NCBI GenBank assembly: GCA_021810205.1
Contig: JAJZJC010000002.1
Location: 1 to 64,000, forward strand
Direction of reading: 5' to 3'
Length of the DNA stretch: 64,000 bases
From: Actinomycetes bacterium
GTDB lineage: Bacteria; Actinomycetota; Acidimicrobiia; Acidimicrobiales; RAAP-2
The notes under the pieces are model-generated. The model searched no databases. It saw only the letters and a program-made list of their open reading frames with translations, and had not been told where the DNA came from. This document shows positions 32,375 to 64,000 of the stretch, in pieces (position 1 is the first letter of the stretch; the number at the start of each line of letters is the position of its first letter). The position numbers were made by a program, and so were the translations under genes.

Positions 32375-32527
32375 ACCTTCTACCGTAGACCTGGGCCCGC
32401 TGCCCACATGGGATCAGCGCCAGCCGACGAGGATCCCGATCGCACCGGGCGAGGCACCCGCCACCGTGATACCCCGGCTGTGATGACGCGACATAGCCCA
32501 GCGCGAGACGCAGGTCCAGATTGGATC

Positions 32528-43138: not shown

Positions 43139-44065
43139 TTAGACCGCGCCCCACACGACGAGGTGTGACCTGAACGCGGTGGCGTCCCAGTCGCGCACCA
43201 TCCATCTCGGCAACTGCAGCCGGTCGTTCAACCGGGTCACCCTTCCGCCAAGCGTGGTGCACGCGGTGGCGAAGCCGCAGCGCCGGGCCGCATCGACCGA
43301 GTCGCGATCGAACGACGACGGGTCGCCGTAAGGGTAGGCGAGGTCGCGCACCGGGCGTCCGAGCAGCTCTTCGAGCGCGAGGGCCGAGCCGTGCATTTGC
43401 GCTTCCTGGGCGGCGGGTGGGAGTCCTGCGAGCAGTCGATGATCGACCGTGTGGGCGCCCACCGTCACCAAGGGACTGGATGCCAGCTTCTGGAGCTCCT
43501 CGTGGCGGAGCACCCGCGAGGAGCGCGGCTCGGGCACGTCCGTGCCGAGCTGGATCGCGATCGTCACCAGTGCGGCGTCAACGACCTCCATGTCAACCAG
43601 TCGAAGGCGCGAGTGGAGCGCGACCAGCGCGTCGGTCGCCGCTCTCGCCCCGTGGAGCGACACCCGGAGCGGCGACCCACTGAGGTCGAGCTCGAGCTCG
43701 ACTTCGGTGCGCCCACCGAGCAGCAGTGCGAGCCGGTCCCACCAGAACCCGCTCCGGTCCCCGAGGGCGCCGGTCACGACGAAGAAAGTGGCCGGCACGT
43801 CGCAGGCCTCGAGCGCCGGGAGCACGTGCTCGAGGTTGTCGGCGTAGCCGTCGTCGAAGGTGAGCGCGACCTGTGGGCGACCGCGGCGCCAGAGGCAGCG
43901 AACGGGTCGCCTGGCAGCCACGAGGTCCGCGAGCGGCACGACGTCGGCCAGGTCGACGAGCACGCCGAGCTGGGCCTCGAACCGCTCGGGATCGACGCAG
44001 AGCCCGTACGGGTCCGCCGGATCGTCGGCCACCCGGTGGTACATGAGGATGGTCCGGCGGGTCAT
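43139..44065 (-). CDS. polysaccharide deacetylase
   Basis: [16 protein letters not shown]...[34 protein letters not shown]; start 44065 overlaps upstream stop. Confidence 0.92.
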
Positions 44066-45756: not shown

Positions 45757-46805
45757 CGGGCCGTTGCGTGCACCCGGCGTGGCCGTTCGGCGCGGGCGGA
45801 AGGACGGGACTGGTTGTCGCTATCGGGCCGGGGCATGAGCTCGGTGTCTCTGCCCTGCATGGCGAGCGTCGCGCCGGCGCACAGCGCGATCCTGCGTGCG
45901 AAGCGGAAGACCAGCACCTGGCCACGCGGCCAGCGCACCAGCAGGTCGCCGATCCGTCCCGCGACGATCGCCGACGGCACGCCAAGCCCTGCCATCGAGA
46001 GCACCTTTGCGACGACCCGCGCCGCCACGGGCATGCCATCGAGCACCGAGTCGGGTTCGAACGGTCCGAGCACCTCGGGATGGGCGCGGTGCAGCTGCCA
46101 ACGGCTCGCCCCCTGCATCTTGGAGTACCACACAAACGACGTGGCATCCCGGCCGTGCCGGTGCTCGGCATGGAGCGAGCGGTCGAACCGCCCGACGAGG
46201 CCCGCCTCGAGGCAGCGGATCCCGAGCTCCTGGTCCTCGTGCCCGAAGTAGCGGAAGTCGAGCCCGACCCGCCGGCAGTGTTCCGTGCGGATCGAGACGT
46301 TGCCGCCCCACAGCTGGCACAGCACGGTGGCCGGGTCGGCCTCGTAGCGCCGGCAGTGGCGCTCGTACTCCTCGGCGTAGAGCGCGCTCAACGCCGCGAT
46401 GTCGCCCTCGTCGGGGTCGGGAACCGTCGGCATGTAGCCCACGACGACCAAATTCGCAGCGTCGCGGTGGTGGCGCGCGTGGCCGGTGACGAGCCCGGGC
46501 CCGGCCACCACGTCCTGGTCGAAGAGGAGGGTCACCTCCCCGCTCACGAGCGCGAGGCCGGCGCCCAGTGCAGCGGACTTCCCAGCGTGCGCCACGAGCA
46601 CCGGTACCACCCGGCCGTCCTCCTCGTGCAGCGCCTCGAGCACCTCGAGGGTCCCGTCCCGGCAGCCATCGACGACCACGACCACCTCGGTCGTCGCCGG
46701 ATCGACGAGCAGGGCGCGTACCGTGCGGCTGATCTTCGACGAGTATCGGTAGCTCGGCACCAGCACCGACACGGTCGGTAGCGCGCGTACTACCTGCCCT
46801 ACCAC
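45753..46805 (-). CDS. family 2 glycosyltransferase
   Basis: [46 protein letters not shown]...[16 protein letters not shown]. Confidence 0.92.
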
Positions 46806-47515
46806 GTGGCCTCCCACGGCTCGACGCGCACGACACCGGGACTGTCACGCACATGGTCCCACTGCGCGGCGTAGAAGACCCGGTCGGGGGCCCTCCACTT
46901 CTCTGCATACTGTTCGTCGAGGTATGACGGCAGGTCTGCCGCGCACAACCACGTCGTCCCGTAGAGCGGCGGCACCGTCGGGATCTTGTCTTGGAACCTG
47001 ACTGCGGTCTCCACCTCCACCTCGCGTGGAGCGAGCGGAGAGCGCCGGTCGACAGCGTAAGTGATCCAGTACTCCTTGTCGTCCCGGCGGAAGCAGCGCA
47101 CGAGGTCGATCCATACCCCGTCACGGCGGAGCCGCATTTCGGTGAGGGTGCCCGCGCTGTCCTCGAGACGGTGGACCAGCGCGAAGCCGTTCGCGACGAG
47201 ATGTGGCAGTGCGCACATCATCGCCTCATGGTCCGCGTCGGCGTAGCCGAGGTCCACGTCTGTCAAGTCGTTGTCGAGGGCCCGGCCGTTCCGCGCATAG
47301 CCGATCGCGATCCCGCCCATGAGCCACAGCCTGCATGCCATCTGCGTCTCATCGAGCGTGGCGGCGAGCTGCCTGAGGACCCTGCGGAGCATCAGCGCCC
47401 GCACGGGTCGGCTGTGCGCCGCCTTCGGCGGGAAGAGCTTCCTCATAACGAAGTACCCCGCGCGCTGCCCGGCTGAAGGCCGCGCGAGCGCGATGGGCCG
47501 CTTGGCCGTGCTCAC
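46799..47515 (-). CDS. nucleotidyltransferase/LicD-like protein
   Basis: CRLWLMGGIAIGYARNGRALDNDLTDVDLGYADADHEAM. Confidence 0.6.
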   Translation of the reverse strand: MSTAKRPIALARPSAGQRAGYFVMRKLFPPKAAHSRPVRALMLRRVLRQLAATLDETQMACRLWLMGGIAIGYARNGRALDNDLTDVDLGYADADHEAMMCALPHLVANGFALVHRLEDSAGTLTEMRLRRDGVWIDLVRCFRRDDKEYWITYAVDRRSPLAPREVEVETAVRFQDKIPTVPPLYGTTWLCAADLPSYLDEQYAEKWRAPDRVFYAAQWDHVRDSPGVVRVEPWEATW

Positions 47516-49034: not shown

Positions 49035-49076
49035 CAGTGACACCAGTGAGCTGACAAGTACGCTCCTCCACCGCAG

Positions 49077-50297
49077 ATGGATGTACGACTCACGCGGTTG
49101 GGGGAGGTCACCCAAGCCCAAGAGCGCAAGTGGCGCGCCTTGGCGGCGCGCGCCTTGGAACCCAACCCGGTGCTCGAACCCGAAGCGCTGCTCGGGGCCG
49201 CGAGGCACCTCCCCACGTGGAGCCGACTGCCCCTGCTGGAGGTCACCGACGGCGATGACGTGCTGCTCTGCGCGCTCGCCCGCCCGATCGATCGCTGGCG
49301 AAAGCTCCCCTTGCCCACCCTGACCAGTCGCCCCGAGGACGAGGCAGTCCCGGTCTTCGTGGTGCTTGGCACCCCTCTCGTCGATCCCGCGCGTGCGCAT
49401 CAAGCCGTCACCGCGCTCTTGTCTGCGTTGAAGAGCGGCGACGTCCGCCCGCATGGCAGCCGGAAGGCTGCGCTCATCACCGTCGATCGCTGGCAGGCGG
49501 GTGGGGGTGTCGCCAAGGCGTGGGAGAACGCATGCGCTGACCTCTCCCTCCCCGTCGCCACGTCGAGCAGGTGGGATCGCCCGGTCCTCCTGCGAGAAGA
49601 GGCACTTCGCGACCGCTGGCCCGCGCAGATCAGCCGAGGCCGCCGGCGCGAAGCGGAACGCTGCCGCCGACGGCTCGCCGAGGAGCTCGACGGCCTCGTG
49701 GAGTGCCACGATCGAAGCGCCGACCCTGCAGCCATCGACAAGCTCCTCCAGCTGGAGGCAGAGGGGTGGAAGGGAAGGGCCCGCAGCGCGCTCAACGCCG
49801 ACGCCGCACGCGCCGACGCGTTCGCCGACGCCTGCCGGGCTTGGGCGCTCGACGGGCGCCTCCTCCTGCTGACGTTGGAGGCCGGTGCGACGCTGCTCGC
49901 AGCCGTCTGCTGCGTCCGATCGGGTGCGGGACTCTTCGGGCTCAAGACCGCATATGACGAACGGTATGCGCGCTTCGGTCCCGGTCTCCTCCTCCACCTG
50001 GCGGCGGCGGCGCACTTTCTGTCCAACACGGATGCGTCGTGGATGGACTCTTGCACCGCGCCGTCCAACACCTTCTTCTCGACGCTCTTCCCTCATCGAG
50101 TGGCGGTCGTCTCCACGACGACCGGGCTCGACTGGGTGGGCAGTGCCGCGCTGAGGTCACTGCCGCTCGTCGAGACGGCGGCGACCTTCCTGCGCCGGAG
50201 TACACGCCGAGCCCCCGTGACCCCGACGAGCACGAGCCGGTCCGCCATGTTGCCCGTTGCGATGACCGTGGAAGAGACCGTCCGCCGATCGGGATAG
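49077..50297 (+). CDS. GNAT/BioF2 (FemAB-like fold) acyltransferase
   Basis: CHDRSADPAAIDKLLQLEAEGWKGRARSAL...; paralog of next gene. Confidence 0.75.
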   Translation: MDVRLTRLGEVTQAQERKWRALAARALEPNPVLEPEALLGAARHLPTWSRLPLLEVTDGDDVLLCALARPIDRWRKLPLPTLTSRPEDEAVPVFVVLGTPLVDPARAHQAVTALLSALKSGDVRPHGSRKAALITVDRWQAGGGVAKAWENACADLSLPVATSSRWDRPVLLREEALRDRWPAQISRGRRREAERCRRRLAEELDGLVECHDRSADPAAIDKLLQLEAEGWKGRARSALNADAARADAFADACRAWALDGRLLLLTLEAGATLLAAVCCVRSGAGLFGLKTAYDERYARFGPGLLLHLAAAAHFLSNTDASWMDSCTAPSNTFFSTLFPHRVAVVSTTTGLDWVGSAALRSLPLVETAATFLRRSTRRAPVTPTSTSRSAMLPVAMTVEETVRRSG

Positions 50298-51271
50298 ACC
50301 CACAGAAGCGTCTGATTGTCCTCGTAGGTGCAGCTGTCGATCCATGCTGCGTCGGTCGTGCGGCAGAGGTGTTCGATCGTGTCGAAGTGGAGCTGGATCC
50401 CCGGCGAGTACCTTGCCATCGCCTCGTCGAAGGTGAGCTTGCACAAGAACATGCCCGCGCCACCTCGGAGAAACAGCTGAGCGGCGACGACACGATCCCC
50501 TGCCTCGAGCGTATGGAGATGGAGTCGCCCGGCAACCCGGAACCGCTCGCACATCTCACGGAACCACTCGGGCTCGCCCACTTGGGTGAGGATGGCGACG
50601 CCATTTCGCCCCTTGTACCCGGACGCCTCCATTTGGAGCACGGCCTCCACCGCCGCTGGGTCCGCGCTGCGGTCGTGAAACCGAACCTCGGCGCCAAGAT
50701 GGCGTCCGAGCAGTCGCCGTTTGCGGGCGATCGTCGCAATGGTCTTCTTCGAGTGGTGCGCCGAGTGCTCACTTGCGGACCGCGTCCGCACCACCGGTCG
50801 CTCCCACCGGTGGTAGACACGCCGGGTCAATCCAAGACGGCCTGCCGCGTCTGCAAGCGCTTCTGCGACGGGGCCGTCGTCCAGCCAGTTGAAAACCAGC
50901 AATCCGGGCAACCGATCATCAGCCGCAGCACGTAGCACGTGCAGGACCGCCCGCCAGGCATCGGATGCGCGGCGCTGATCCACGAGCGGCGTCGCGTCGT
51001 AGTCCATACGGCGCACCTTGGTCATGAGCAGCGGGCGGCGCAGCGCCCGCCATGACGGCTCCGCCTGCACGGGAAAGCAGGCATGCCACACTCCCTCGTC
51101 CTCGGCAACGACGAGCTGCATCCGTGAACCGTTCGACAGGTGCCCGGCCGCTGGGAGGAGGCAATCTGGCTCGAAGAGGGGGTTCGGCTGGACGGCGCGC
51201 TCAGCGAGGTCGCGCCACGCGGCAATGTCCTTTTCACCCAGGCTCAGGATCGGGCGAATGTGACCGTTCAT
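50093..51271 (-). CDS. GNAT/BioF2 (FemAB-like fold) acyltransferase
   Basis: FHDRSADPAAVEAVLQMEASGYKGRNGVAILTQ...FREMCERFRVAGRLHLHTLEAGDRVVAAQLFL. Confidence 0.8.
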   Translation of the reverse strand: MNGHIRPILSLGEKDIAAWRDLAERAVQPNPLFEPDCLLPAAGHLSNGSRMQLVVAEDEGVWHACFPVQAEPSWRALRRPLLMTKVRRMDYDATPLVDQRRASDAWRAVLHVLRAAADDRLPGLLVFNWLDDGPVAEALADAAGRLGLTRRVYHRWERPVVRTRSASEHSAHHSKKTIATIARKRRLLGRHLGAEVRFHDRSADPAAVEAVLQMEASGYKGRNGVAILTQVGEPEWFREMCERFRVAGRLHLHTLEAGDRVVAAQLFLRGGAGMFLCKLTFDEAMARYSPGIQLHFDTIEHLCRTTDAAWIDSCTYEDNQTLLWVYPDRRTVSSTVIATGNMADRLVLVGVTGARRVLRRRKVAAVSTSGSDLSAALPTQSSPVVVETTATR

Positions 51272-51311: not shown

Positions 51312-53222
51312 TTACCCTTCGCGACCGGGGCGTGCCGGCACCGCGCAGCCGAAATCCCGTTCGCTTCGCACACCTGCCATCGCCAGCACGGCGCGGGTGA
51401 CACGCTCGATCACCGCGTCACGCTGCGAGGCGACGACAAGGCCATGGTCGAGACCGGGCAGCACGTCGATGTGGAACCGTTCGTCGGTGCCATCATCGAG
51501 GCCGGCGTCGGCGAGCTGACCGGCTTCGGCTTCGCCGCACACGCAGTAGATCCGGACCCCGGCCGCGGCGAGCTCGGCGGTCCATGTGACGCGCCGCCGT
51601 CTCTTCGTCCGTGCGCCATCGAGCAGCCGCCGGACGGTCGCCAGCATCCTGCTGAGCCGGTCAGGTAGCACGCGCCGGGCGCCCGCGACCCATACCGGCC
51701 GGGGCTGGCAGAGCCGGCGCCGTGACGAGACGGGGCCTCCCTCGGCAAGCTCGGGCGGCGTGAACCGCAGCAACGGGTTGATGCCGATCACGCCGAGTGG
51801 CTTCAGCACCAGCGCGCTTTCCAGCGCCTGGTACGCGCCGGAGCAGAGGCCTGCGAGCACGGTCCTCTCGGGACCGCCGACGGCGTCGACGAGGTCAGCT
51901 ACGTCGTCGAACGCCTCGATCGCACGGATGACGCCCTCGGGCCGCCCCGGGCGAGGCGGGCTCTCGCCCAGACCGCTCAAGTCCACCCGCACAGAGCGAA
52001 TCCCGTGGGCGGCGAGCCGCCGAGCCAGCAGGACCCACAGCCGGACAGGGCCGACATGCGACTCATTGCCGCTGGAGAGGAACAGCACGGTCGCCGGCGC
52101 TGCCACTTCGGGCGCCGCACCACCACAGCATCCGTCCTCACCCGACGCCCAGCTGCGACCGTGCGGGACCGTCTCGATGCCGAACAAGCCTCGGGCTCCC
52201 AGGGCACGCACCCGTTCGAGGACGGCCACCTCTTCCTTCACGGCGGGGGGCACGACCATCGGCTCTGAGGCTCGGGCCATGCGCAGCGACTTCTCGGCCT
52301 CTGCGCGTCGGTCGACGTCCTCGGCAGCGGTCACCCCACATCGATCTCGGTCACGGCCAAGCTCACCCAACGCGCTCGAGACCCAGTCGACGACCAAGCT
52401 CGCGGTCGCCTCAGGTACCTGCTGGCGCAGCGGGTCGACCTCAAAGCAGTCCTCCTGCTCGCTCCCGACAGCGGTGAGGACGTCTGCCGAGTCGCCCGGC
52501 GTGGAGTCCCCATACGACTCGATCAGTGGCAGCCCAGCGCTCGTGGAGGAGGCGCGCACGACGTACAGCGCTCTTCGCGCCGAGAGAGTTCCGGGCAGCT
52601 CGAGCCGATCGATCGCCTCAACGGTCGCTGGATCCAGCTCGAACCCCGGAACCTCGACGCCTCTCGACGGATCGGGCCGCGGCACTCGGATCGCCTGTAG
52701 CGCGCGCTGACCCCGGAGGAACACTCGGCCGCTTGACGAGGGATCCCAGATCACCAGTGCGTCGACGTCCTGGCGCAGCACCGCCGACTGCGCGGCAACG
52801 AGGGCGCCCGAACGCACTCCCAAGAGCGCGAGCGGTCCCGCACAGCGAGCGCGCGCAAGCATGACCGCCTGGTCCACCCCCTCGAACCAGGCCGTGGCGC
52901 TCCGAGAGCCAGCCAGTGCCCCTCCGGAGTCACCCGTGCCGCGGTAGTCGAATCGCACAGCGACCAAGCCCCTGCGCGCCACGGCGCGCGCGACCACGCG
53001 GTAGAGGGCGAACGCAGCCGCCTGCTCCCCGAGCAGCGGGGGGACGAGCACGACCGCACCCCGCGGGGCCGACGCCGGTTCGTGCAGCCACGCGAAGATC
53101 GGCCATCGGCCCTGCTCGAGCCATACCGGCGTCTCGTCGGACACCTCTCGCCCTCTCACCCGCACTCTGCTGCGTCCGAGGAGATCGGCATCGGTCGTTC
53201 GCCGTTCCACCATGTCGATCAT
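51312..53222 (-). CDS. tandem alpha/beta-hydrolase didomain protein
   Basis: Two hydrolase halves: VRFDYRGTGDSGG and VRVDLSGLGESPPR...AGLCSGAYQAL. Confidence 0.75.
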   Translation of the reverse strand: MIDMVERRTTDADLLGRSRVRVRGREVSDETPVWLEQGRWPIFAWLHEPASAPRGAVVLVPPLLGEQAAAFALYRVVARAVARRGLVAVRFDYRGTGDSGGALAGSRSATAWFEGVDQAVMLARARCAGPLALLGVRSGALVAAQSAVLRQDVDALVIWDPSSSGRVFLRGQRALQAIRVPRPDPSRGVEVPGFELDPATVEAIDRLELPGTLSARRALYVVRASSTSAGLPLIESYGDSTPGDSADVLTAVGSEQEDCFEVDPLRQQVPEATASLVVDWVSSALGELGRDRDRCGVTAAEDVDRRAEAEKSLRMARASEPMVVPPAVKEEVAVLERVRALGARGLFGIETVPHGRSWASGEDGCCGGAAPEVAAPATVLFLSSGNESHVGPVRLWVLLARRLAAHGIRSVRVDLSGLGESPPRPGRPEGVIRAIEAFDDVADLVDAVGGPERTVLAGLCSGAYQALESALVLKPLGVIGINPLLRFTPPELAEGGPVSSRRRLCQPRPVWVAGARRVLPDRLSRMLATVRRLLDGARTKRRRRVTWTAELAAAGVRIYCVCGEAEAGQLADAGLDDGTDERFHIDVLPGLDHGLVVASQRDAVIERVTRAVLAMAGVRSERDFGCAVPARPGREG

Positions 53223-55759
53223 CGTCGTTGCACCACGATGGGGACGTGGTCCGGGGAGTTCAGCGCCTGGACCGTCCCCCGGGGAACCAGCATGGCGTCG
53301 CCCGCCGAGCCCTCTTCCTGCCAAAGCTCGACGGTCCGTCGACGGCCTGGCGGGAGGTGGAACCAGGAGTCCGCCGGAATGAAGCCCTCCACCCGGAGGC
53401 TGACCCACTGGGCAAGGCGCTCGGACTGGACGTCCACCCGCCAACACCCGTCCGAGCCCTGATGGGCGGACGCCCGAAGCCCCAGGTCCCGTTCGAAGGT
53501 ACGGGCCTGCCCCAGCGGCAGGTAGACGACCTGCGCGAGGGGGGTGTCTGCATTGGGGCCGGTGCCGTCGACCCCTGCACGGGGCAACAGCGTCGCCACC
53601 ACCGCGTCGTACGCGGGCGGAGCGAACCGATAGGCGTACGTGACGTCGCGCCACGCGCCCAGGACCTCCTCGGCGCCGATCGAGAAGCTGCCGCGCCCCG
53701 CTACGTCCACGGCGACGTCGGCCCGCTCCACCAACACCGCGCCGGGAGCCACGAGCGCCACCTCGAGGAGGGCCGCGACGGGCTGCGGACCGTCGTTCAC
53801 GACGTGGAGGGCGAGCCCGTTCAATCCTTCGTCCACCGCGAGGAGCGCAAGCGGCGCCAGCACGCGCCGCAAGGCGTACCAGGGCGCTTTCGGCCGGCCG
53901 GCACTGTCGACGAGACCCCAGCCGGCCCCGGCCCGCAGATCGGACAGCGCCAGCACGAGGCCGCCGTCGCACGGCGACCCTGGGCGCCGCCACTCGGTGA
54001 ACACAGCCTCCATCAACACGGCGTTCGCAGCCCGTCCCAGCTCGAGCGCCCGCTCGGGGTCGGCGTAGCGGACCTGGAACGGATCGACGCCGAAGAGAGA
54101 GCCGACGTAGTGGGACCGCACGTCCTCCATGTCCCAGCTGCGGCCGGCGTCGTGGTGGACGGCCCGCTTCCATTCGGGGTCGTGACCGGCACGAGTGGCG
54201 CCGCCGCACAGCTCCTCCACAGTCTGGGGCTCAGGCGGAGTCGCGAGTGCCAGGCACTCGGCGGCAAAGCGAACCGAGGCGCGCCGGACGTCGTCAAGGG
54301 GCCGGAGGTACCCCCCGACCCCGAAGTACTGGCTCACCCCCTGGTCCATGCGGAATGGCGGTTCTCCGCCAGACGGGTTGGAGGCCACGTAGGGAATGCC
54401 GGGCAGCACCTCGGCGACCACGTCGGCCAGGAGCTCGTCGAAGAGCGGCGTGGCTCGACGTTCCGCTGGGAGACCGAACATCGCCGCGACCTCCTCCACC
54501 TCCTGATTCCCGCACACGACCGCGAGACTCGGATGACCGTCGAGGGCGACCAACGATTCGCGCGTCTCGGCCACCATCTCGGCCCGGAAACACTCGTCGT
54601 CAGGGGGGTCCATGAACGCGAACATGCAGTCCTGCCAGACAAGCATGCCAAGCTCGTCGCACTGTTCGACGAAGGAAGGAGTGGGCAGCACAGTGGTCCC
54701 CGGTACCCGGACCATGTTCATCCCGGCCGCCTTGGCAAGCTCCAGCAAATGGCGCTCGGGCCGTCCGGCTGCGCCCGGCGACAGCGGGTCGGGCGGGAAC
54801 CACACCGCCCCCCGGCAGAATATCCGGACGTCGTTCACCTGCAGCTCGAAGCCGCCGTCGGCACGCTCGAGACCCAGGGTGCGGAAGCCGACCGACCCGA
54901 GAACACAGGCACGATCGCCCAGCTCCGCCACAACTTGGTACCGGGGTTGTGGACCATGGGTGTGGGGCCACCATCGCTCGGCGTCCGAGAGGGTGACCGA
55001 CCCGGCACACAAGAGCTCACCATCTGACTCGCGCCACTCGAGCGGCGCCGTCGCGCCACCAACGACGAGACGGCCCGGCCCTTGTCCAACACGCGCGGCC
55101 GCTGCTGCTCTTGGCAGACAGAAGTGCGCCTCGACCGCGCCGCCGCCGTCTGGGAGGCAGCTCGTGCGCAGCCACACGTCGGTCACGCTCGACCCGTCGA
55201 GCGCGATGAGCTCGACCGGTCTCCACAGCCCGACAACCGGCGGGACCTCCGCCCATCCCGGCATGCGGCCGAGCAGGCTGGTACGAATCCAACGCAGCTG
55301 CTGGTGCTCGACGAGATAGGTCTTCCAGCGCGGCCGTGGCCGCCGATCACGTAGGACCGGGCCGAGTGCCGCACACCGGACAACCAGCTCGCAGTCACCC
55401 AGAAGATCACCGACATCGACGGTTGCCGCACGGTGCATCGTCGATGACGTCAGCACATGCTCACCGTTCAGCCAGACGTCCGCCAACGTGGCGATGCCCT
55501 CGAACCGGACGCGATAGGGACCACCGGGCCCCTTGAAGCGGCAACGGAACCACCAGTCGGACTCGTCCAACGCCTCATGGTGCAGTGGTCGCCCGGCGGC
55601 GCGCAGGGCGGAAGCCACGGTGCCCGGCACCTGGGCCGGGAACCAGTCCACGTGCTCTGTGAGCATCCCGACGCTCGCCATCGCCCCTGCGTCGCCCTGG
55701 GCGCATTCCCATCCAGCCTCGAGGCGCACCGGCCTGCCCCTCACCGGTCCGCCTCTCAC
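53219..55759 (-). CDS. glycoside hydrolase family 2 (beta-mannosidase-like)
   Basis: WFPAQVPGTVASALRAAGR...DESDWWFRCRFKGPGGPYRVRFEGIATLADVWLNG; GTG start 55759 overlaps upstream stop (GTGA). Confidence 0.88.
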   Translation of the reverse strand: MRGGPVRGRPVRLEAGWECAQGDAGAMASVGMLTEHVDWFPAQVPGTVASALRAAGRPLHHEALDESDWWFRCRFKGPGGPYRVRFEGIATLADVWLNGEHVLTSSTMHRAATVDVGDLLGDCELVVRCAALGPVLRDRRPRPRWKTYLVEHQQLRWIRTSLLGRMPGWAEVPPVVGLWRPVELIALDGSSVTDVWLRTSCLPDGGGAVEAHFCLPRAAAAARVGQGPGRLVVGGATAPLEWRESDGELLCAGSVTLSDAERWWPHTHGPQPRYQVVAELGDRACVLGSVGFRTLGLERADGGFELQVNDVRIFCRGAVWFPPDPLSPGAAGRPERHLLELAKAAGMNMVRVPGTTVLPTPSFVEQCDELGMLVWQDCMFAFMDPPDDECFRAEMVAETRESLVALDGHPSLAVVCGNQEVEEVAAMFGLPAERRATPLFDELLADVVAEVLPGIPYVASNPSGGEPPFRMDQGVSQYFGVGGYLRPLDDVRRASVRFAAECLALATPPEPQTVEELCGGATRAGHDPEWKRAVHHDAGRSWDMEDVRSHYVGSLFGVDPFQVRYADPERALELGRAANAVLMEAVFTEWRRPGSPCDGGLVLALSDLRAGAGWGLVDSAGRPKAPWYALRRVLAPLALLAVDEGLNGLALHVVNDGPQPVAALLEVALVAPGAVLVERADVAVDVAGRGSFSIGAEEVLGAWRDVTYAYRFAPPAYDAVVATLLPRAGVDGTGPNADTPLAQVVYLPLGQARTFERDLGLRASAHQGSDGCWRVDVQSERLAQWVSLRVEGFIPADSWFHLPPGRRRTVELWQEEGSAGDAMLVPRGTVQALNSPDHVPIVVQRR

Positions 55760-56832
55760 CGGTCCGCCTTCGACGAGTTCGACGGCTCGAAGGGCCACCG
55801 CGTGGCGCGCTCGTCGCCGCCACGTCGGGGTCGCCCACGGCGGCTGGTGCCCGCCGCGCCGACAGCAGCCGACACCGCGTCGCTCACCGCCCCGATCCCC
55901 GCCGCCCAGCTGGCTGCGAGTGGAGCGAAGAGCACGTCCACGTCGACGGCACGACCGCGGACCGCGCGCGCCATGGCCATCTGCGCCGCCTTCGCCTCGA
56001 TGGCCACGGTCTCGAGCGCCGCAGCGCCATCCGAGGCGCCGGCCACACCTGCCGCCTCGAGCCACGTGGCGAAGGAAGCGGCCAGCTCGGCATTGGCCCC
56101 GCACTGTCGCAGGGTGCCGAAGGCCCAGCGGTGGAAGGCGTCAAGCCCCTCCCGCTGAAGCCGGTCTAGGTCGTGGAGCACCCGCTCCGCCATCTGGATG
56201 ACCGGATTACCCTGGGCGCGACGGCTGAGATGTGCGGCAGCAAGCCTGATCGCCACGGCAGGGTCGGTGGCCCCGGGCGGTCGGCGCCTGCCCAGGCGGA
56301 CCTGGAGCGTGTATGGCGGCAGCACGTCTGGTGCCGGCGTTTCGGGCAGCAGGGTCTCGAAGTCCTCGCCGCGGAGCTCGTAGCAGCCGGCGTTGTGCAG
56401 GTACCGCAGGGATCGCCGCTCGGTATCGATGGACGTCACCATGAGCGTCGTCTTCTGATGGACCCGTCGATACGTGAGGCCCGCGGTGTCAGGAAGGCAC
56501 CATGCGTCTGCGTCGAACGCCACGAGGTTGCCCAGCGCGAGCTGCTCGACGACGTGCTCCCGCAACGGCCGCCAGACGTTCAGCTCGTCCGCCTCGATCC
56601 CATAGAGCGACGAGAGGGTCTCCTGGGGGTAGGTGAACATTCTCCACTGGTCCCCATCGAAGCCCGAGGCAAGCGTGAAGGAGAGCCCTGCAACCGGGTC
56701 GTAGCCGAGCGCGTGGAGCGCCTCGATCCACAGATCGGCGGCGCAGTTCGTCTCCGACCAGATGCGGTCCACGCCGTGCAGCCGGTGGGGTCGGTATCGA
56801 ACAGGGTCGAGACCGAAGACATCAGCTCGCAT
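55756..56832 (-). CDS. DUF1839/BtrH-N-like protein
   Basis: MRADVFGLDPVRYRPHRLHGVDRIWSETNCAADLWIEALHALGYDPVAGLSFTLASGFDGDQWRMFTYP; family known beside aa:CP ligases. Confidence 0.75.
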   Translation of the reverse strand: MRADVFGLDPVRYRPHRLHGVDRIWSETNCAADLWIEALHALGYDPVAGLSFTLASGFDGDQWRMFTYPQETLSSLYGIEADELNVWRPLREHVVEQLALGNLVAFDADAWCLPDTAGLTYRRVHQKTTLMVTSIDTERRSLRYLHNAGCYELRGEDFETLLPETPAPDVLPPYTLQVRLGRRRPPGATDPAVAIRLAAAHLSRRAQGNPVIQMAERVLHDLDRLQREGLDAFHRWAFGTLRQCGANAELAASFATWLEAAGVAGASDGAAALETVAIEAKAAQMAMARAVRGRAVDVDVLFAPLAASWAAGIGAVSDAVSAAVGAAGTSRRGRPRRGGDERATRWPFEPSNSSKADR

Positions 56833-56850: not shown

Positions 56851-57864
56851 TCAGGCTTGCGGGCCGGCCAGCCCGAGCTGGGCCCGCACGTAGAAGGGCC
56901 ACGATGCCGGGTCCAAGCCGTGGACGGCCAACATCGCGACCACGATGCGGTCGATGCCGAAGGCCACGCACGCGCTGTGCGCCACCTCTCCCGCAGCGGA
57001 ATGGATACCGAAGGACTTGCCGAAATGGTCCCGGTGACTGTTGGCGGACATGACCGCGGTCTCACCCTCGGTCCCCGGGATGGGAGTGACGCCCTCAATC
57101 TTCAACTGCTCCTCCAGCTGTCCGGCAGCGAGCACATTGCCCACGCGCCCGAAGAACGGGTCGGACGCCGGGACGGCCCGCATCGAGAGTCCGAGGCCCT
57201 CGAGCATGCGCAGGCCGCAAGCCAGCCCCTCCTCCCTGTGGTTCCACGCGCTCTCGGCACTCCCCACATGGACGATCTCGTGCATCACGAACGACTGCAG
57301 GCGAGCCGCGTTCACGCTCGGCTCGTGACGGAAACATGAGCTCTGGACGTCGAAGATCCTGCCGCCTTCGGGCAGTGTCCCGGTGCACAAGGGGTAGACG
57401 CCGTGGCACGCGGCGGAGCACAAGACGACGTCCGCCGGCTCGAGCAGGGCGGGCCAGTCCCCGTCGGACGCCACCCGCTGCAGGAGCTGCTTGTGCTCGG
57501 CATCACCGCCAGTGAAGACGTGCACCGACCCCATCAGGTCGGGGAACGACTCGAGGTAGTTGGTGTGGAGGAAGGTGGAGCGTGCCAGGACCGGGGGCAG
57601 GTGGACCCGCTGCGCCCCAAGATCCTGGCCCCACCGGCGCACCATGAGGCCGACACCGTCGGCCACGTCCTGGTAGACGCCGGAGCGTCCGTAGAGCCCG
57701 AGGACCCCGGTCGGCACGAGCAGGCCGGCTTTCAGCATCTTGTCGACGAGCGAGGAGTGCCCCGCGACCGGGGCTCGGGGGTCGGAAGGTGCGACCAGCG
57801 TGCCGGGGTACCCGGTCGTGGCCTCCTCGGCGTAGTGCACGTGGGTCTGGACCATTACTGTCAC
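56851..57864 (-). CDS. amino acid--[acyl-carrier-protein] ligase (truncated class-II SerRS-like)
   Basis: SCFRHEPSVNAARLQSFVMHEIVHVGS (motif 2), SACVAFGIDRIVVAMLAVHG (motif 3); no tRNA-binding domain. Confidence 0.85.
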   Translation of the reverse strand: MTVMVQTHVHYAEEATTGYPGTLVAPSDPRAPVAGHSSLVDKMLKAGLLVPTGVLGLYGRSGVYQDVADGVGLMVRRWGQDLGAQRVHLPPVLARSTFLHTNYLESFPDLMGSVHVFTGGDAEHKQLLQRVASDGDWPALLEPADVVLCSAACHGVYPLCTGTLPEGGRIFDVQSSCFRHEPSVNAARLQSFVMHEIVHVGSAESAWNHREEGLACGLRMLEGLGLSMRAVPASDPFFGRVGNVLAAGQLEEQLKIEGVTPIPGTEGETAVMSANSHRDHFGKSFGIHSAAGEVAHSACVAFGIDRIVVAMLAVHGLDPASWPFYVRAQLGLAGPQA

Positions 57865-59093
57865 GGCTTTCCTTCATGTCGGTCGTTCTCGATTGGATCC
57901 CTGGAGAGGAGGAGCAGCTGGGCGTTGTCTCCGAGAATGCGGTCGTTGCTCACCATGAGCTCGGCACTATGGGCGTCGCGAAGCTGCCGACCCAGGCTGA
58001 ACGGGGTCCCTTCGCGATACCCGTCCATGCCGCAAACGGCCAGCGCGCCGCTCACCACTTCGACGACCAGCTTCGACGCCCCGAGCTTGAGGGCGTTCAG
58101 GGTGACCGCATCACCGACGCCCTCCGCCCGACGCCCTCCCGCGTCCTCGTCGTAGCGGGCGAGAGTCGCGGACACGAGCCCGTCGAGCTGGTGGAAGACC
58201 ACGTCGAGCTCGGCGAGCCGACGAGCCCCCGGCGGCACGGTGCCTGGTTCGTGGCGTGCCTTTCTTCGAACGAACGCACTGGCCTTGGACACCGCGGCGT
58301 CGGCGATCCCGAGCCAGACGTGGCTCCACAGGATGTGGGAGTACGGCAGCATCGTCTCGGCTGCCACATCGGCGAACGGGTCGTCGACGATCATTGTCAA
58401 CGGGCCGGCGGCACGGAGCATGAAACCGGGGCTGCACGTGCCCCGCAGTCCCAGCGTGTCCCACTGGCCCGTCTGCTCGAGCAGGACGTCCGGCCGAACG
58501 CACGCCGCGAGCACCTGGTCTCCTGGAGCACTTTCGGGCGTGCGTCGAGCCGTGACCAGCACCGCATCGGCGGACGCCCCGTAGGAGACCACCGGCGCCC
58601 GCTTCTCCAGCACGAAGCGTCCGTTCTCGGCGTGCACGGCGCAGCTGCTCTCGCGCAGCCTCCCACCGCTGCCGGCCTCGGTGGTCGCCGAGGCCAGAAG
58701 GAGCTGACGGCCCGCGACGTCGGCCAGAAAGCGAAGCAAGCCAGGCGATCGGCCGTGACGCACGAGGCACGCCACCTGAAGGTGATGCATCGCCAGGATC
58801 ATGGCACTCGACGCGCAGTAGCGAGCCAGCGCACGCACGCCTGCGCCGGCCTCGCCGAGCGTCGCGCCCCTCCCTCCAAGCCCCTCGGGGACAAGAGCCC
58901 CGAGGACGCCGGCTTCTTTCAGCGCGTCGAAGGCCTCGATCGGGAACCGGGCGGACCGGTCGACGTCGTCGGCGTGGGCAGCAGCCACGTCACGTCCGAT
59001 CCTCCTCACGGACTGCAGGAGGGTAGGAGCTTGGACCTCCGCGGCGACCGACGTGGCATCTGCCGCTGCGTCCTGCACGACTGAGACGGTCAT
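57861..59093 (-). CDS. acyl-CoA dehydrogenase family protein
   Basis: LASATTEAGSGG..., GLGGRGATLGEAGAGVRALARYCASSAMILAMHH. Confidence 0.85.
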   Translation of the reverse strand: MTVSVVQDAAADATSVAAEVQAPTLLQSVRRIGRDVAAAHADDVDRSARFPIEAFDALKEAGVLGALVPEGLGGRGATLGEAGAGVRALARYCASSAMILAMHHLQVACLVRHGRSPGLLRFLADVAGRQLLLASATTEAGSGGRLRESSCAVHAENGRFVLEKRAPVVSYGASADAVLVTARRTPESAPGDQVLAACVRPDVLLEQTGQWDTLGLRGTCSPGFMLRAAGPLTMIVDDPFADVAAETMLPYSHILWSHVWLGIADAAVSKASAFVRRKARHEPGTVPPGARRLAELDVVFHQLDGLVSATLARYDEDAGGRRAEGVGDAVTLNALKLGASKLVVEVVSGALAVCGMDGYREGTPFSLGRQLRDAHSAELMVSNDRILGDNAQLLLLSRDPIENDRHEGKP

Positions 59094-59359
59094 GCCGGTA
59101 CTTCCATCGTCTCGAGCGCGCCGAGCGCTCGCCGAAGCGCGCTGATCGACGAGAACGTGCTCTTTCGCAGCATCGCCTCTGGAAACTCCACGTCGAAGGC
59201 GTCCTCCAGTGCGAGCATGACGTTCACGCTGGCATGGGAGGTCATCCCCGCCTGGAACAGGTCGTCGTCGTCGGAAAGGCGCTCCACGTGCACCGGCAGG
59301 CGGCCATGCTCGGCCAGTACGCCACGTATGCGTTGCGTCAGCTCGTCCGTCTTGCTCAT
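59090..59359 (-). CDS. candidate independently translated carrier protein (internal start of the AcpS-ACP ORF)
   Basis: ATG at 59359 preceded by GAGGAG with 7-nt spacer (gaggagcacatcgATG). Confidence 0.6.
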   Translation of the reverse strand: MSKTDELTQRIRGVLAEHGRLPVHVERLSDDDDLFQAGMTSHASVNVMLALEDAFDVEFPEAMLRKSTFSSISALRRALGALETMEVPA

Positions 59360-59854
59360 CGATGTGCTCCTCGGGTGTTGGTTCGATCGATCGTGAGGGG
59401 AGGTCTCAGGAGCTCCTGGGCATGCCTTCTTCGCTGGCCGGTCGCAGACGGCCACCACCACGGCGAGCGCGATCCCTGATTCATGGCTGAGGCTCACGCT
59501 CATGCGGCCGGTCCCGCGTCGGGCGGCGAGCGAGGCAGCCCGGTCGTGCAGGCGTATGCGGCAGGCGCCGTTGGATCGACGCACCACCTCGATGTCGCGC
59601 CATTGTGGCCGGGCCCCATGCGGCTCGAGCACCTTCAGGACCGCTTCTTTGGCCGCGAAGCGAGCCGCCAGTGACGCGGCAGCGCCAGGACCGTGGCCGC
59701 AGCTTGCAATCTCCTGCTTGGTGAACAGGCGCTCGACATAGCGATCCCCGAACAGTGCGACGGACTTGGCGACGTCCGTGACCGCCGTGACGTCGACGCC
59801 GACCCTGACGTCGCCGAGCGTGCCGTCGGTGGCCCGAAGACCGAGCTCAGGCAT
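59090..59854 (-). CDS. holo-ACP synthase (AcpS-like) fused in frame to acyl carrier protein
   Basis: VGVDVTAVTDV...FTKQEIASC...LAARFAAKEAVLK...VSLSHESGIALAVVVAV followed without stop by MSKTDELTQRIRGVLAEHG...AGMTSHASVNVMLALEDAFDVEFPE. Confidence 0.85.
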   Translation of the reverse strand: MPELGLRATDGTLGDVRVGVDVTAVTDVAKSVALFGDRYVERLFTKQEIASCGHGPGAAASLAARFAAKEAVLKVLEPHGARPQWRDIEVVRRSNGACRIRLHDRAASLAARRGTGRMSVSLSHESGIALAVVVAVCDRPAKKACPGAPETSPHDRSNQHPRSTSMSKTDELTQRIRGVLAEHGRLPVHVERLSDDDDLFQAGMTSHASVNVMLALEDAFDVEFPEAMLRKSTFSSISALRRALGALETMEVPA

Positions 59855-62144
59855 CCAGGCCTCCCAGTACCCGTCGGAGCAGATCGTCGGCGTTCTGATC
59901 GCACGGAAGAGACACGACCAGGTGCTCGGCTCGTGCGGTCCATGGGGTGGACCCCACGGGGATTCCCTCATCTGCCAAGGCGGCGAGCGCCGCTCCCTCG
60001 AGGTGCGCTGCCACTCGAGCACCGTCTTCAGCGGGGTCGGCGAACACCACCACCACCGCCACGAAGAGCGACGACCCGACGCGTGCGAGCAGGTCGTCGA
60101 ACCGCAGCTCGGCTCGGAGCCTCTTCGCCACCGTCGCCAAGAGCTCCTCGGGCGCGCTAGCTGCGCGCCCATGAACGGCCGTCGCACCGCGCCGAACCTC
60201 GATGCCGACCAGCGCCACGGACCAGCCCGGTTGGTGCACCGCCCCGAGCAGTCGCCCAATCCGCGCCAGCAGCACCGCACCGGTCGCGAGCCCCGTGACC
60301 GGATCGGTGTCGGCCAGGAATCGCGCGGCCGCGTCGTGGCTCCTCGCGTCGCGAGGGATGGGGCCGACGCCGGCTCCCATCTGCGTCCATGACGCCCTTG
60401 GAGCGCCCGGGAGGCCGGAGGATGGCTCTCCAGAGGCATGCCCCAAGAGCGTGGCGGCGCGCTCGGCTGCGCGAGAGCTTGCAGAGTCAGCGACGACGCC
60501 GGACCGCACATCGAGCGCGTCGAGCAATGAGAACCTCTGCACGGTCGCAGTACGGGGGGCGATCGCTCCATTCGCCGCCATCTCAGCGCCTCGGATCCGA
60601 GGTCCGCTGATCGCGAGGACGACTTGCGCCGGTGTGAGCACCGGTTGCGGGGCGACCGAGCCCCTGTCGGGCGCAGGCGTGCCCTTCTCGCGCGATCGCC
60701 GAACGATGGTTGTCCAGGCTGTCGATATCAGGCGCCACAGCTCTGCTCGCGTCGAACGGACGGCAAACAGCGCGAGCGTCGGGGCGAGCAGCAGGAAGCC
60801 CCACCGGATCGGGACGAGAGGAATGAACATGGGAGACGCGAGTGCGACAAGTGGAAGGATGAGCCGCCGGTATTCGAGCGGGATCAGTCGCTGCGCCGCG
60901 ACGTGCGTATTGATCGTGGAGGCCACGGCAGCGAGCGCGGCGATCCCGTACCCGATGAGCCCAAGCTCTCGCACAGCCACCAGCGCGACGAGGCTCACGA
61001 TCACCAGCTCGAGCACACTCGTGATGGCGGGCGCGCCGTTCCTTCCGTAGGCATACAGAACGGTCCGCTGGGCCGTGGCCGGGACTCTGAGCGTCGCCCA
61101 GAGGGCCAGCAGCACGTACAGGGGCAGCGCGGGGAGCCAGACGCGCCCGAAGCCAACGAGGATGGCCCAGTGCGCGAACAGGCCGAAGACGACGAACGGG
61201 AGTGCCGAGATAACCAGCAGTAGCAGCGTGCCCTCTTCCAGCGCCGCCGCGAGACGACCCGACTTGGACTCGCTCGCCCGCGAGATGGCCGCCAGCCCGA
61301 TGCGATGCACGCCCCGGTCGGTGAAGTTCATCGTCAAGACGAGCCGTTGGGCGAAGTTCACCAAGCCGACGCCAGCTGCGCCCGCGAAGGTGCCGACGAT
61401 CATCGTGAGGATTGCCGAACGTACCCCCGCCACCCACGTCGTGACGGAGAAGGTCCTCCCGTGCACGATCAGTTCGCGCGCCGTGCGGTTCGACCACGCA
61501 AGCCGGGGCCAGAGCCCCGAGAGCGCCATGCTCCCGACGAGGAGCCAGCTCTGCCAGGCGAAGAAGCCCGCGATCAGCGACCAAGGTCCTGCCCCCATCA
61601 CGGCGAGGGGCACCGCCGTGCCGTACAGCACCACATCTCCGCCGAGCTCCAGGAGGCCCAACTGCCGAAATGCGAACCTTCGCTCGAGACGCGCCTGCAT
61701 CGGCGCCCAGAGAATGTTGACGGGCACGCTCAAGAGCAGCACCCGCATCGGAGGCACGACGCCATGGGGTCGGAGCAGCGGGCCGACGAGGTACGAGATG
61801 CCCATTCCCGCAGCCACGACAACGCCAGAGGCAACGAGCAACGTCGTGAACACCTCGTCGTAGCGTCGCCGCGGCAGGGGTCCTGGCTGGCGGATGAGGA
61901 AGACCTCTGCGCCCATCTGCGCGAGGGTCGCGGGGAGCACGACGTATGCAGCTGCCGCGCTGTAGAGCCCGAAGTCCGACGGTCCGATCCTCCGCATCAC
62001 AAGCACCAGGCCGAGCAGTCGGATGCCGACCCCCAGCACTTCGCGCCCCGTCAGGTACGCCGCGCTGCGGATAGCCGTCTCCCGCAAGGAGCTGGGCGTC
62101 TCCAGCTCCCTTCCTCTCCCACCACCACGCGCTCGGCCCAACAT
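59847..62144 (-). CDS. Wzx/MATE-type polysaccharide flippase with C-terminal degenerate GGDEF domain
   Basis: N-terminal YLTGREVLGVGIRLLGLVLVMRRIGPSDFGLYSAAAAYVVLPATLAQMG; C-terminal DPVTGLATGAVLLARIGRLLG...LRFDDLLARVGSSLFVAVVV. Confidence 0.88.
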   Translation of the reverse strand: MLGRARGGGRGRELETPSSLRETAIRSAAYLTGREVLGVGIRLLGLVLVMRRIGPSDFGLYSAAAAYVVLPATLAQMGAEVFLIRQPGPLPRRRYDEVFTTLLVASGVVVAAGMGISYLVGPLLRPHGVVPPMRVLLLSVPVNILWAPMQARLERRFAFRQLGLLELGGDVVLYGTAVPLAVMGAGPWSLIAGFFAWQSWLLVGSMALSGLWPRLAWSNRTARELIVHGRTFSVTTWVAGVRSAILTMIVGTFAGAAGVGLVNFAQRLVLTMNFTDRGVHRIGLAAISRASESKSGRLAAALEEGTLLLLVISALPFVVFGLFAHWAILVGFGRVWLPALPLYVLLALWATLRVPATAQRTVLYAYGRNGAPAITSVLELVIVSLVALVAVRELGLIGYGIAALAAVASTINTHVAAQRLIPLEYRRLILPLVALASPMFIPLVPIRWGFLLLAPTLALFAVRSTRAELWRLISTAWTTIVRRSREKGTPAPDRGSVAPQPVLTPAQVVLAISGPRIRGAEMAANGAIAPRTATVQRFSLLDALDVRSGVVADSASSRAAERAATLLGHASGEPSSGLPGAPRASWTQMGAGVGPIPRDARSHDAAARFLADTDPVTGLATGAVLLARIGRLLGAVHQPGWSVALVGIEVRRGATAVHGRAASAPEELLATVAKRLRAELRFDDLLARVGSSLFVAVVVVFADPAEDGARVAAHLEGAALAALADEGIPVGSTPWTARAEHLVVSLPCDQNADDLLRRVLGGLDA

Positions 62145-62161: not shown

Positions 62162-63376
62162 TCAGCCCGCACGAAGCTTCACCACCGCGGCACGAAGCAG
62201 CTCGTCTGCGTCCTGCCCGCCGTTGAGCGGCGCGACAGCATGCGCCGCGTGGACGCGCGCACCGGCGATCCTCGCGACCGCAGCCCGCGCCTGCCCAGAC
62301 ACATGATCCTCCACCTGCGCCGCGGTCGCGCCTCCGGGGGCGAGCGGCACCACGGCGACGAACGACAGCTCGCCGATGCGCGCCACTGGATCGTCGAAGC
62401 GCAGGCCTGTCCGTATCGACCGAACCACGTCGGTGACGCGATCCGCCGACGGATCCTCCACTCCCTCGATCTCCACGGCCACCGCGGCAAGGGAGCCGCT
62501 CATCGACGACCCTGCGCCGAGCAGCCTGCCAGCTCTCCCGAGAAGGGCACCGAGCGGGACCAGCCCGTCGATCTCCTCCTCTTCGACCAGGAGGGAACGA
62601 AAGGAGTCCTCTTGACGCGCGCGCGCGGGCTCGTCGTGTCCCGGCGCTCTGTCGCCGGCCTGCAAATCGACGGCGCGAAGGCTCGCTGATCGGCGATCAC
62701 CGGTGCTGCCTTTGCTGCCTTCCCGCACCGGGAACGCCGGGAACGCACCGGCGCCCGCGGGCAACCCGTCACGCCACCGTGCGACCGCGGCGCCGGGGAC
62801 GTCGCCGCCGATCGCCGCTGAAGCGGGCCGGGATCCGGCGTCGTCCTCGGATGCTCCCTCACCCCGAGGCGCAGGCTCCTGCGGCATCGGCATTGCGTCG
62901 AGTGCCGGCTCCGACGCCGTCTTGGTGTCGGTCTCAGTCGCGCGAATCAGCCGGTTGCGCACCGCGCGACGCGCCTGGACGTACGAGGTCATCCGCCGAG
63001 CGATCCTGGAGAGCAGCTCGAGCTCGGGCATCCCGAACGTCCTGCCGCTCGGATCGACGGCGCCCAAGATTCCCGCGAGTTGATCCTGCCCATTGACCGC
63101 GACAGGCACAGCGACGACCGCCAAGCGCTCATCGCCGATCTGCATGGTGCGCACGACGGCCTTGCCACGCCCGAGGCCAGGATCATGCCAGAGCTGGCGG
63201 ATGAGGCAGTCCACCGTCGACTCTTCTACTGCGCCCGGCTCGGCGGAGACGGGGTAAACAAGAGAAGCAAACGAGTCGGCGGACTGCGCGAGTGCCACGA
63301 ACGACGAGGCACTCTGGCAACCGCTCCGCGCAATCCGGAGCAGGTTGATCGTCCCCCCACTCAGTCGCTGTTCCAT
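62162..63376 (-). CDS. GAF + degenerate GGDEF-domain protein
   Basis: MEQRLSGGTINLLRIARSGCQ...LAGILGAVDPSGRTFGMPELELLSRIARRM; LRFDDPVARIGELSFVAVVPL; ATG 63376. Confidence 0.8.
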   Translation of the reverse strand: MEQRLSGGTINLLRIARSGCQSASSFVALAQSADSFASLVYPVSAEPGAVEESTVDCLIRQLWHDPGLGRGKAVVRTMQIGDERLAVVAVPVAVNGQDQLAGILGAVDPSGRTFGMPELELLSRIARRMTSYVQARRAVRNRLIRATETDTKTASEPALDAMPMPQEPAPRGEGASEDDAGSRPASAAIGGDVPGAAVARWRDGLPAGAGAFPAFPVREGSKGSTGDRRSASLRAVDLQAGDRAPGHDEPARARQEDSFRSLLVEEEEIDGLVPLGALLGRAGRLLGAGSSMSGSLAAVAVEIEGVEDPSADRVTDVVRSIRTGLRFDDPVARIGELSFVAVVPLAPGGATAAQVEDHVSGQARAAVARIAGARVHAAHAVAPLNGGQDADELLRAAVVKLRAG

Positions 63377-63492
63377 CTCTTCGTGCTCCCCGCTCCCTCG
63401 TTTGGCTACTCCGTCGTTCGGCCACCCTCTCGTTGGGGTGGCCTTTGCCAGAGCTCGTCCGACTACCGGGTCAACGATACGAAACGGCCGTC

Positions 63493-64000
63493 TCAGTGCC
63501 GTTTGCACCGCGTCCCACGCCGCTGCCAACGTGCGATCGAGCCGCCCCCATCAGGCGCCCAGGACGCACCACCCACCCGCTGACCGACAAGACCCCCTGG
63601 CGTCAAGACCTTCTGACCGGCAAGAAGGTCCTGGCGGAGCACTGCGGCAGCACGCGGGAACGTCCCGCCAGTCAGTGCCAGTGCCTGGTAGTCCCAAAGC
63701 ATGCACATGACGAGGTGCTCGCTCACCGCCCATCGCAGCATCTGCGAGACGAACCTGGCATCGTCGCCTGCACCCCCGAGCGACGACGGGATCTCGCCCC
63801 ACATGGCGATAGCCATCGGTTTGTGGTGAGCAGCAGCAAAAGAGGCCATCCACGCGGGTCCGAAGCGCTCGTGGAGCACGGTCGACCAGTGCCCGGCTGT
63901 CGATGGGTCATCGGCGACGAAATCGAACGCGTCGGTGCCGACGATGCCGACGGCCTTGTTGCCCGGGTACATAGCGGCCGGGCTCACCGGTGAAGTGCCT
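63493..64000 (-). CDS. glycosyl hydrolase (GH26-like) C-terminal part, 5' end beyond window
   Basis: MYPGNKAVGIVGTDAFDF...FAAAHHKPMAIAMWGEIPSSLGGAGDDARFVSQML; frame open to window end. Confidence 0.6.
   Translation of the reverse strand, partial: GTSPVSPAAMYPGNKAVGIVGTDAFDFVADDPSTAGHWSTVLHERFGPAWMASFAAAHHKPMAIAMWGEIPSSLGGAGDDARFVSQMLRWAVSEHLVMCMLWDYQALALTGGTFPRAAAVLRQDLLAGQKVLTPGGLVGQRVGGASWAPDGGGSIARWQRRGTRCKRH

Follow-up and report, generated by a model that had tools for sequence, protein, structure and literature searches.

A conserved aminoacyl carrier protein operon beside polysaccharide genes of an acidimicrobial genome, and a candidate route from carrier to amine

Introduction

What becomes of an amino acid that has been loaded on a dedicated carrier protein? 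The question is raised by the 64,000-nucleotide window analysed here (the whole stretch, positions 1 to 64,000 of the forward strand of contig JAJZJC010000002.1, assembly GCA_021810205.1), in which a gene for an amino acid:[carrier protein] (aa:CP) ligase lies among polysaccharide genes. The host is described as a soil actinobacterium and its named relatives are Acidimicrobiaceae. The answer suggested below is a cytosolic pathway that would pass the aminoacyl group from its carrier protein to an amine, here probably that of an amino-sugar precursor before export by a Wzx flippase; we put the probability of this reading at about 0.5.

Structures of aa:CP ligases were solved over a decade ago. 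Their biological role was called unknown in a review of 2022 (PMC9437257), and in a Bradyrhizobium proteome the ligase Bll0957 was seen to shift together with Bll0958, the adjoining acyl-CoA-dehydrogenase-fold flavoenzyme (ACAD) (PMC10888616). The published work that we found deals with the ligase and the carrier protein only; no biochemistry was found for the DUF1839, glycoside hydrolase family 2 (GH2) and hydrolase proteins encoded downstream, and nothing direct was found on a function of the ligase together with its operon, with exopolysaccharide (EPS) or with the hydrolases of exosortase-A (XrtA) loci.

Results and Discussion

The ligase module and its conservation

The genes of the module are the following.

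59360..59854, minus strand: AcpS-type phosphopantetheinyl transferase, in frame with the carrier protein (PF01648, 53.6 bits)
59090..59359, minus strand: aminoacyl carrier protein (ACP), attachment residue Ser41 (NF005480, 97 bits, cut-off 72)
57861..59093, minus strand: ACAD, canonical catalytic Glu replaced (IYEGT to LMVSN)
56851..57864, minus strand: aa:CP ligase (LIG) with SerRS-like catalytic core (NF005479, i.e. PRK07080, 369.5 bits, cut-off 357)
55756..56832, minus strand: DUF1839 papain-like protein, C30/T129/H146 (DUF1839 match of 325 bits; model resembling carrier-dependent amide synthases)
53219..55759, minus strand: beta-mannosidase-like GH2, partner of DUF1839 (start at either 55759 or 55744)
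51312..53222, minus strand: twin alpha/beta hydrolase (ABH) with a hydrolase-2-like half (GxRxG) and a hydrolase-1-like half (GxCxG) (TIGR03101 and TIGR03100)

Judged by family membership, the identity of the ligase/carrier module is solid, since both proteins exceed the cut-offs of curated models, and an earlier reading made from the sequence alone (the sequence-only reading) was right in this respect; its genes were found on the minus strand where it had placed them, a finding far beyond chance, with DUF1839 just outside the interval it gave. The nearest solved structure to the ligase is Bll0957 (3mey/4h2w, E about 1e-69), and those nearest to the carrier protein are 4h2w chain C and 2jq4/Atu2571. 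The 337-residue ligase is matched in its core domain alone, without the tRNA-binding domain, the alignment with Bll0957 covering residues 48-333. Its C153, E196 and C299 align with C131/E176/C279 of Bll0957, the Zn ligands of that enzyme; neither Cys varied across 22 ligase sequences, and the Glu was kept in at least 90%. The Bradyrhizobium and Agrobacterium proteins Bll0957 and Atu2571 (PDB 3mey, 4h2s-y, 2jq4) thus share families, the truncated SerRS-like core and the aligned putative Zn site with the window, which adds the downstream DUF1839, GH2 and hydrolase genes. The attachment region of the carrier protein had been called atypical, but Ser41 was invariant (102/102) and T-S-H/L/F-A-S/T-V is the norm of the family.

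AcpS and the carrier protein occupy one open frame, so that a self-phosphopantetheinylating fusion is possible, despite the carrier protein having its own ATG at 59359 and a strong Shine-Dalgarno sequence (CCGAGGAGCACATCG). The same single frame was seen in locus L034 and not in L033. In Ktedonobacter racemifer (L084) the ligase match contains an in-frame TAG, possibly a pseudogene or a sequencing error.

In order to define the extent of the module, about 100 ligase loci were compared, drawn from plasmids, relatives and named genomes and being those nearest to the query. A six-gene operon, ACP-ACAD-LIG-DUF1839-GH2-ABH, recurs among them in Actinomycetota, Pseudomonadota, Planctomycetota, Acidobacteriota, Chloroflexota, Myxococcota and other phyla. 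Co-occurrence was counted in the 66 loci whose flanks reach 7 kb or more on either side of the ligase, partners being scored within 7 kb: the carrier protein was present in 65, ACAD in 54, DUF1839 and GH2 in an identical set of 49, ABH in 44 and AcpS in 36. DUF1839 adjoins the ligase in 34/34 genomes and is restricted to ligase-positive ones (10/16, compared with 0/45 relatives; Fisher 9e-8). By sequence, the module is a widespread gene set in which DUF1839, GH2 and the hydrolase are additions beyond the known ligase and carrier protein. It is also larger than had been supposed, since GH2 and the twin hydrolase belong to it. The former had been filed as an EPS glycosidase; instead it proved to be the obligate partner of DUF1839, for the two were both present in 49/66 loci, both absent from 17/66 and never found apart (p=4e-16).

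In the window the minus-strand order is Wzx, AcpS, carrier protein, ACAD, ligase, DUF1839, GH2, ABH and a FemAB-like gene, tightly coupled; neighbouring genes from Wzx through ABH overlap by 4-8 bp, with the sole exception of an 18-bp gap before DUF1839.

DUF1839 and GH2

The candidate for taking the amino acid off the carrier protein is DUF1839, which by its modelled fold is very probably a carrier-protein-dependent acyltransferase acting on an amine. The AlphaFold2 model (pLDDT 91.8) found AziU3 (E 1.9e-8), CtaG (1.4e-5) and CcbD (1.1e-4) as its top PDB matches in Foldseek, CcbD with a probability of 1.00 and a TM-score of about 0.55, while the papain-like protease AvrRpt2 came far behind (E 0.09). 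The putative catalytic residues are conserved, C30 in 76/76, T129 in 72/75 and H146 in 75/75 sequences. In lincosamide biosynthesis CcbD takes a carrier-tethered proline onto its Cys, from where the proline is transferred to an amino sugar at its amine (PMC12945683). Since the model matches AziU3, CtaG and CcbD, and since this reaction of CcbD is known, aminoacyl transfer from carrier to amine is the best-supported reaction for DUF1839. CcbD/LmbD (PDB 7yn1, 7yn2, 9dkr) resemble the window not only in fold; both systems have a carrier-tethered amino acid, a single carrier protein and a stand-alone activating enzyme, which is a SerRS-like ligase here in place of the adenylation domain of a non-ribosomal peptide synthetase (NRPS). 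CtaG (closthioamide), which has a catalytic-type Cys, and AziU3 (azinomycin) are the best fold matches; these enzymes of natural-product pathways differ in substrates and pathways, and their identity to DUF1839 is low (10-18%).

The sequence-only reading had called DUF1839 BtrH-like. Transfer to an amine agrees with the fold matches, but membership of BtrH_N was rejected: PF14399 was not detected, and PF08893 was the sole match at E<=0.01. A published study placed DUF1839 among the papain-like families, predicted a C(T/S)H triad for it and guessed at an acyl-CoA-dependent glycan processing (PMC10318531). The predicted triad is kept here, where the protein is tied to an aminoacyl-carrier ligase and GH2 and its fold matches amide synthases.

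GH2 gave a full-length profile match to beta-mannosidase 5n6u (E=1e-103 over 780 residues). The acid/base E420 and the nucleophile E501 are conserved; the Asn that usually precedes the acid/base is not. An exo-beta-glucosaminidase (CsxA-like) identity, suspected from a Ser-Glu motif, was rejected, as beta-mannosidases match the profile far more closely.

The ACAD-fold flavoenzyme

At the position of the catalytic Glu of medium-chain acyl-CoA dehydrogenase (IYEGT) the window ACAD has Val, and the LMVNND consensus of 37 homologues is likewise without Glu, which weakens the reading as a standard acyl-CoA dehydrogenase. The solved structures nearest to it include the amino-sugar N-oxygenases DnmZ and KijD3, which match no better than ordinary ACADs. 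Because of these two observations no reaction is claimed for the protein. Its presence in 54 of the 66 loci, with the hydrolase in 44, would suit a scheme in which ACAD turns the aminoacyl-carrier into an oxidised acyl group (e.g. imino- or keto-acyl) that the hydrolase then sets free, the aminoacyl-carrier serving as nothing but its source and no amine being acylated. We regard this as quite unlikely, for the canonical Glu is absent, ACAD itself is absent from the loci that hold only ligase, carrier protein and hydrolase, and DUF1839-GH2 would be left unexplained.

The twin hydrolase and exosortase-A loci

ABH is a fusion whose halves resemble hydrolases 2 and 1 of XrtA loci, with scores below the XrtA cut-offs (TIGR03100 63.5 compared with 168.45, TIGR03101 84.1 compared with 202.75). 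Its nucleophile elbows carry Arg in the first half and Cys (65/66), along with a conserved His, in the second; true XrtA hydrolases share this Arg, and in 5/6 loci the Cys as well. The AlphaFold2 model (pLDDT 76) gave generic alpha/beta-hydrolase matches only. The genes for ACP, hydrolase 2 and hydrolase 1 are adjacent in the XrtA loci L142, L143 and L145-L147, and TIGR03098 and TIGR03099 were confirmed beside the hydrolases in L146; in the window ACP and the fused hydrolases share an operon. Compared with the XrtA EPS loci (ACP, hydrolase 2, hydrolase 1, TIGR03098 ligase, TIGR03099 decarboxylase), the window thus shares the carrier protein, the hydrolase 2/1 pair with its Arg/Cys elbows and the EPS genes, but its hydrolases are fused and below the cut-offs, and a SerRS-like ligase stands where XrtA loci have an AMP-forming one. 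Exosortase (PF09721) had no match in the host genome, a metagenome-assembled genome (MAG) that is 72% complete, and exceeded the cut-off in 1/16 ligase-bearing genomes.

The hydrolase 2/1 pair also adjoins a 2805-residue polyketide synthase (PKS)/NRPS with sugar-nucleotide and glycosyltransferase family 4 (GT4) genes (L134:8022-18962), and an NRPS in Rhizobacter (L135). From its genes this arrangement looks like an NRPS-fed system of polysaccharide or glycoconjugate acylation. Since it is found in XrtA, PKS/NRPS and NRPS loci, the pair travels with several sources of carrier-bound thioesters.

The proposed pathway

The following order of events is proposed. AcpS, assigned by family, would make the holo carrier protein, and the SerRS-like ligase would activate a small amino acid, by analogy with Bll0957 probably Gly or Ala, and load it. 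The ACAD-fold flavoenzyme, though without the canonical Glu base, may oxidise the carrier-bound aminoacyl group. DUF1839, as its fold and conserved Cys/Thr/His suggest, would take the aminoacyl group on its Cys and hand it to an amine, probably that of an amino sugar, in the manner of CcbD, and GH2 would process a glycoside that is the substrate or the product of this step. By its residues and context the twin hydrolase may be a second Cys-dependent enzyme of off-loading or proof-reading, acting by transfer or hydrolysis. The product, an aminoacylated or amidated unit, would most likely be built into the surface polysaccharide ahead of export by Wzx. Transfer to an amine is likely and an amino-sugar acceptor plausible; polymer decoration and the deacetylase step are inferences.

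Cellular location and the polysaccharide genes

The other genes of the neighbourhood are the following.

62162..63529, minus strand: protein GAF/GGDEF-like by eye, conserved 5' of the Wzx gene in relatives (no Pfam/NCBIfam match; hidden Markov model (HMM) matches in 19 loci)
59847..62144, minus strand: Wzx-type flippase (PF13440, 103.6 bits) with a degenerate GGDEF-like C-terminal domain (20.7 bits, under cut-off)
50093..51271, minus strand: FemAB/GNAT-like acyltransferase (PF13480, 79.6 bits; seen in 6 loci)
48222-50096: open reading frame of 624 residues between the FemAB-like gene and the glycosyltransferases (no Pfam/NCBIfam match; recurs in locus L034)
45753..46817, minus strand: glycosyltransferase family 2, EpsD-like (Pfam/NCBIfam profile matches)
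44062..45756, minus strand: GT4 glycosyltransferase (top NCBIfam match the XrtA-system TIGR03088, under cut-off)
43139..44065, minus strand: polysaccharide deacetylase, PgaB-like (profile match under cut-off)

Wzx genes recur at the same position in Acidimicrobiaceae relatives. Two further GGDEF genes lie near the Wzx-GGDEF gene, one of the GAF-GGDEF-EAL type (40694-42970) and one of the PAS-GGDEF type (30569-32407); the fused domain and these neighbours suggest a control of export linked to cyclic di-GMP. At 36243-40654 a ThiF-nitroreductase protein of the Rv1355c family (945 bits) follows a 540-residue protein without family matches.

No signal peptide or transmembrane helix was found by hydropathy in the module proteins of the window that were tested, GH2 included, or in annotated homologues; thus the chemistry of the module is most likely cytosolic. 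This casts doubt on the proposal of the sequence-only reading, namely that the carrier-bound amino acid decorates free amines of an exported polymer already deacetylated by the deacetylase of the locus, and makes a cytosolic precursor the more plausible acceptor. The PgaB-like gene does lie in the same gene run, and deacetylase HMM matches also occur in XrtA loci with ACP and hydrolases; such matches were found, however, in only 4/103 ligase loci, and DUF1839 is not associated with glycosyltransferases. Decoration of the exported polymer is accordingly held to be improbable. Even less credence is given to the FemAB/GNAT-like protein as the acceptor-side enzyme in place of DUF1839 or the hydrolase, with aminoacyl-carrier replacing aminoacyl-tRNA: a PF13480 protein comes after the twin hydrolase in the window, L034 and L038, but such proteins were seen in only 6 of about 100 loci, and the ties of the ligase to DUF1839 and to the hydrolase are much more widespread.

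The link with polysaccharide was followed in 41 ligase-bearing genomes, using the initial sugar transferase PF02397 and Wzx PF13440 within 20 kb of the ligase as markers. PF02397 was present in 14/41 genomes (0.8 expected) and Wzx in 11/41 (0.5 expected), i.e. 17-23 times over chance by a Poisson test that ignores shared ancestry; either marker was found in 16/41, including Actinomycetota and several proteobacteria. The association with polysaccharide genes, on which the sequence-only reading had staked its case, was thus seen, but only in part, because 25/41 genomes had neither marker (some of the contigs are short), a Rhizobium gallicum copy stands beside nif genes and the Azospirillum copy has no adjacent glycosyltransferases. 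The Rhizobium copy (L019:575-14473), which lacks ABH, lies directly 3' of nifHDKENX/fdxB on a conjugative plasmid of a nodule isolate and is followed by an ACC deaminase gene; a role in symbiosis is possible. Further annotated copies are those of Azospirillum lipoferum, Mycetohabitans rhizoxinica and Shinella, the last without ABH.

AcpS (p=0.0006) and ABH (p=0.02) are associated with the presence of glycosyltransferase or Wzx genes, the association of ABH being weak since it is one of five tests, while DUF1839 shows no such association (p=0.55). Salinibacterium (G069) has two ligase operons: the first stands beside DUF1839 (and GH2 in L064) with no PF02397 or Wzx nearby, and the second has matches to the twin hydrolase on its downstream side and PF02397 at a distance of 8.6 kb. 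As the markers go with ABH and not with DUF1839, and the two branches are split in Salinibacterium, the EPS link may belong to the hydrolase branch.

The lack of association between DUF1839 and polysaccharide genes and the 25 genomes without markers weigh against the proposed pathway, and so do the following points. It leaves the obligatory GH2 unexplained, and the source genome (3.0 Mb) is an incomplete MAG. The TM-scores of the DUF1839 model to CcbD and CtaG are modest (about 0.5-0.6), its profile had no sequence match among PDB chains up to E=1, and its triad runs C30-T129-H146 and not C-H-E/D, the Cys-His-Glu arrangement of CcbD/LmbD being absent. Because of these three differences DUF1839, though it probably works in the manner of CcbD, is not counted in that family.

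A rival view is that the operon yields a small soluble compound (an amine or amino sugar bearing an aminoacyl group, in the role of signal, osmolyte or antimetabolite) that has nothing to do with polysaccharide, the EPS locus being one of many contexts. The genomes without markers, the nif-side copy, the Azospirillum and Mycetohabitans copies, both without adjacent glycosyltransferases, and the marker-free DUF1839 operon of Salinibacterium point in this direction, all enzymes would be cytosolic, and the structural relatives of DUF1839 work in small-molecule pathways. Against this stand the strong enrichment of both markers near the ligase, the occurrence of hydrolases 1 and 2 in XrtA and PKS/NRPS polysaccharide loci, and the operon of the window itself, where the end of the Wzx gene runs 8 bp into the start of AcpS. 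A soluble product is therefore a real, if minority, possibility. The amidation or acylation of an amine, probably that of an amino-sugar precursor before Wzx export, is the reading we favour for the window.

Conclusions

A wider proposal can be made tentatively, its chances being well below even: the amino acids of aa:CP ligases would end on the amine of amino-sugar precursors by way of DUF1839 and/or the Cys hydrolase pair, as aminoacyl amides or esters, and so reach surface polysaccharides, the SerRS-like ligase being a third, independently recruited carrier-loading system for EPS acylation, in addition to PKS/NRPS and the AMP-forming ligase of XrtA loci. With its fixed gene set, in which a fold of carrier-to-amine transferases can be identified and a glycosidase is the obligate partner, the operon offers a concrete, testable pathway for the role of aa:CP ligases. 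If true, it would tie enzymes derived from translation to the chemistry of surface glycans or of amino sugars. Through the Cys hydrolase pair common to both kinds of locus it would also hint at a function for the exosortase-A hydrolases, for which the TIGR03100 and TIGR03101 models name no reaction.

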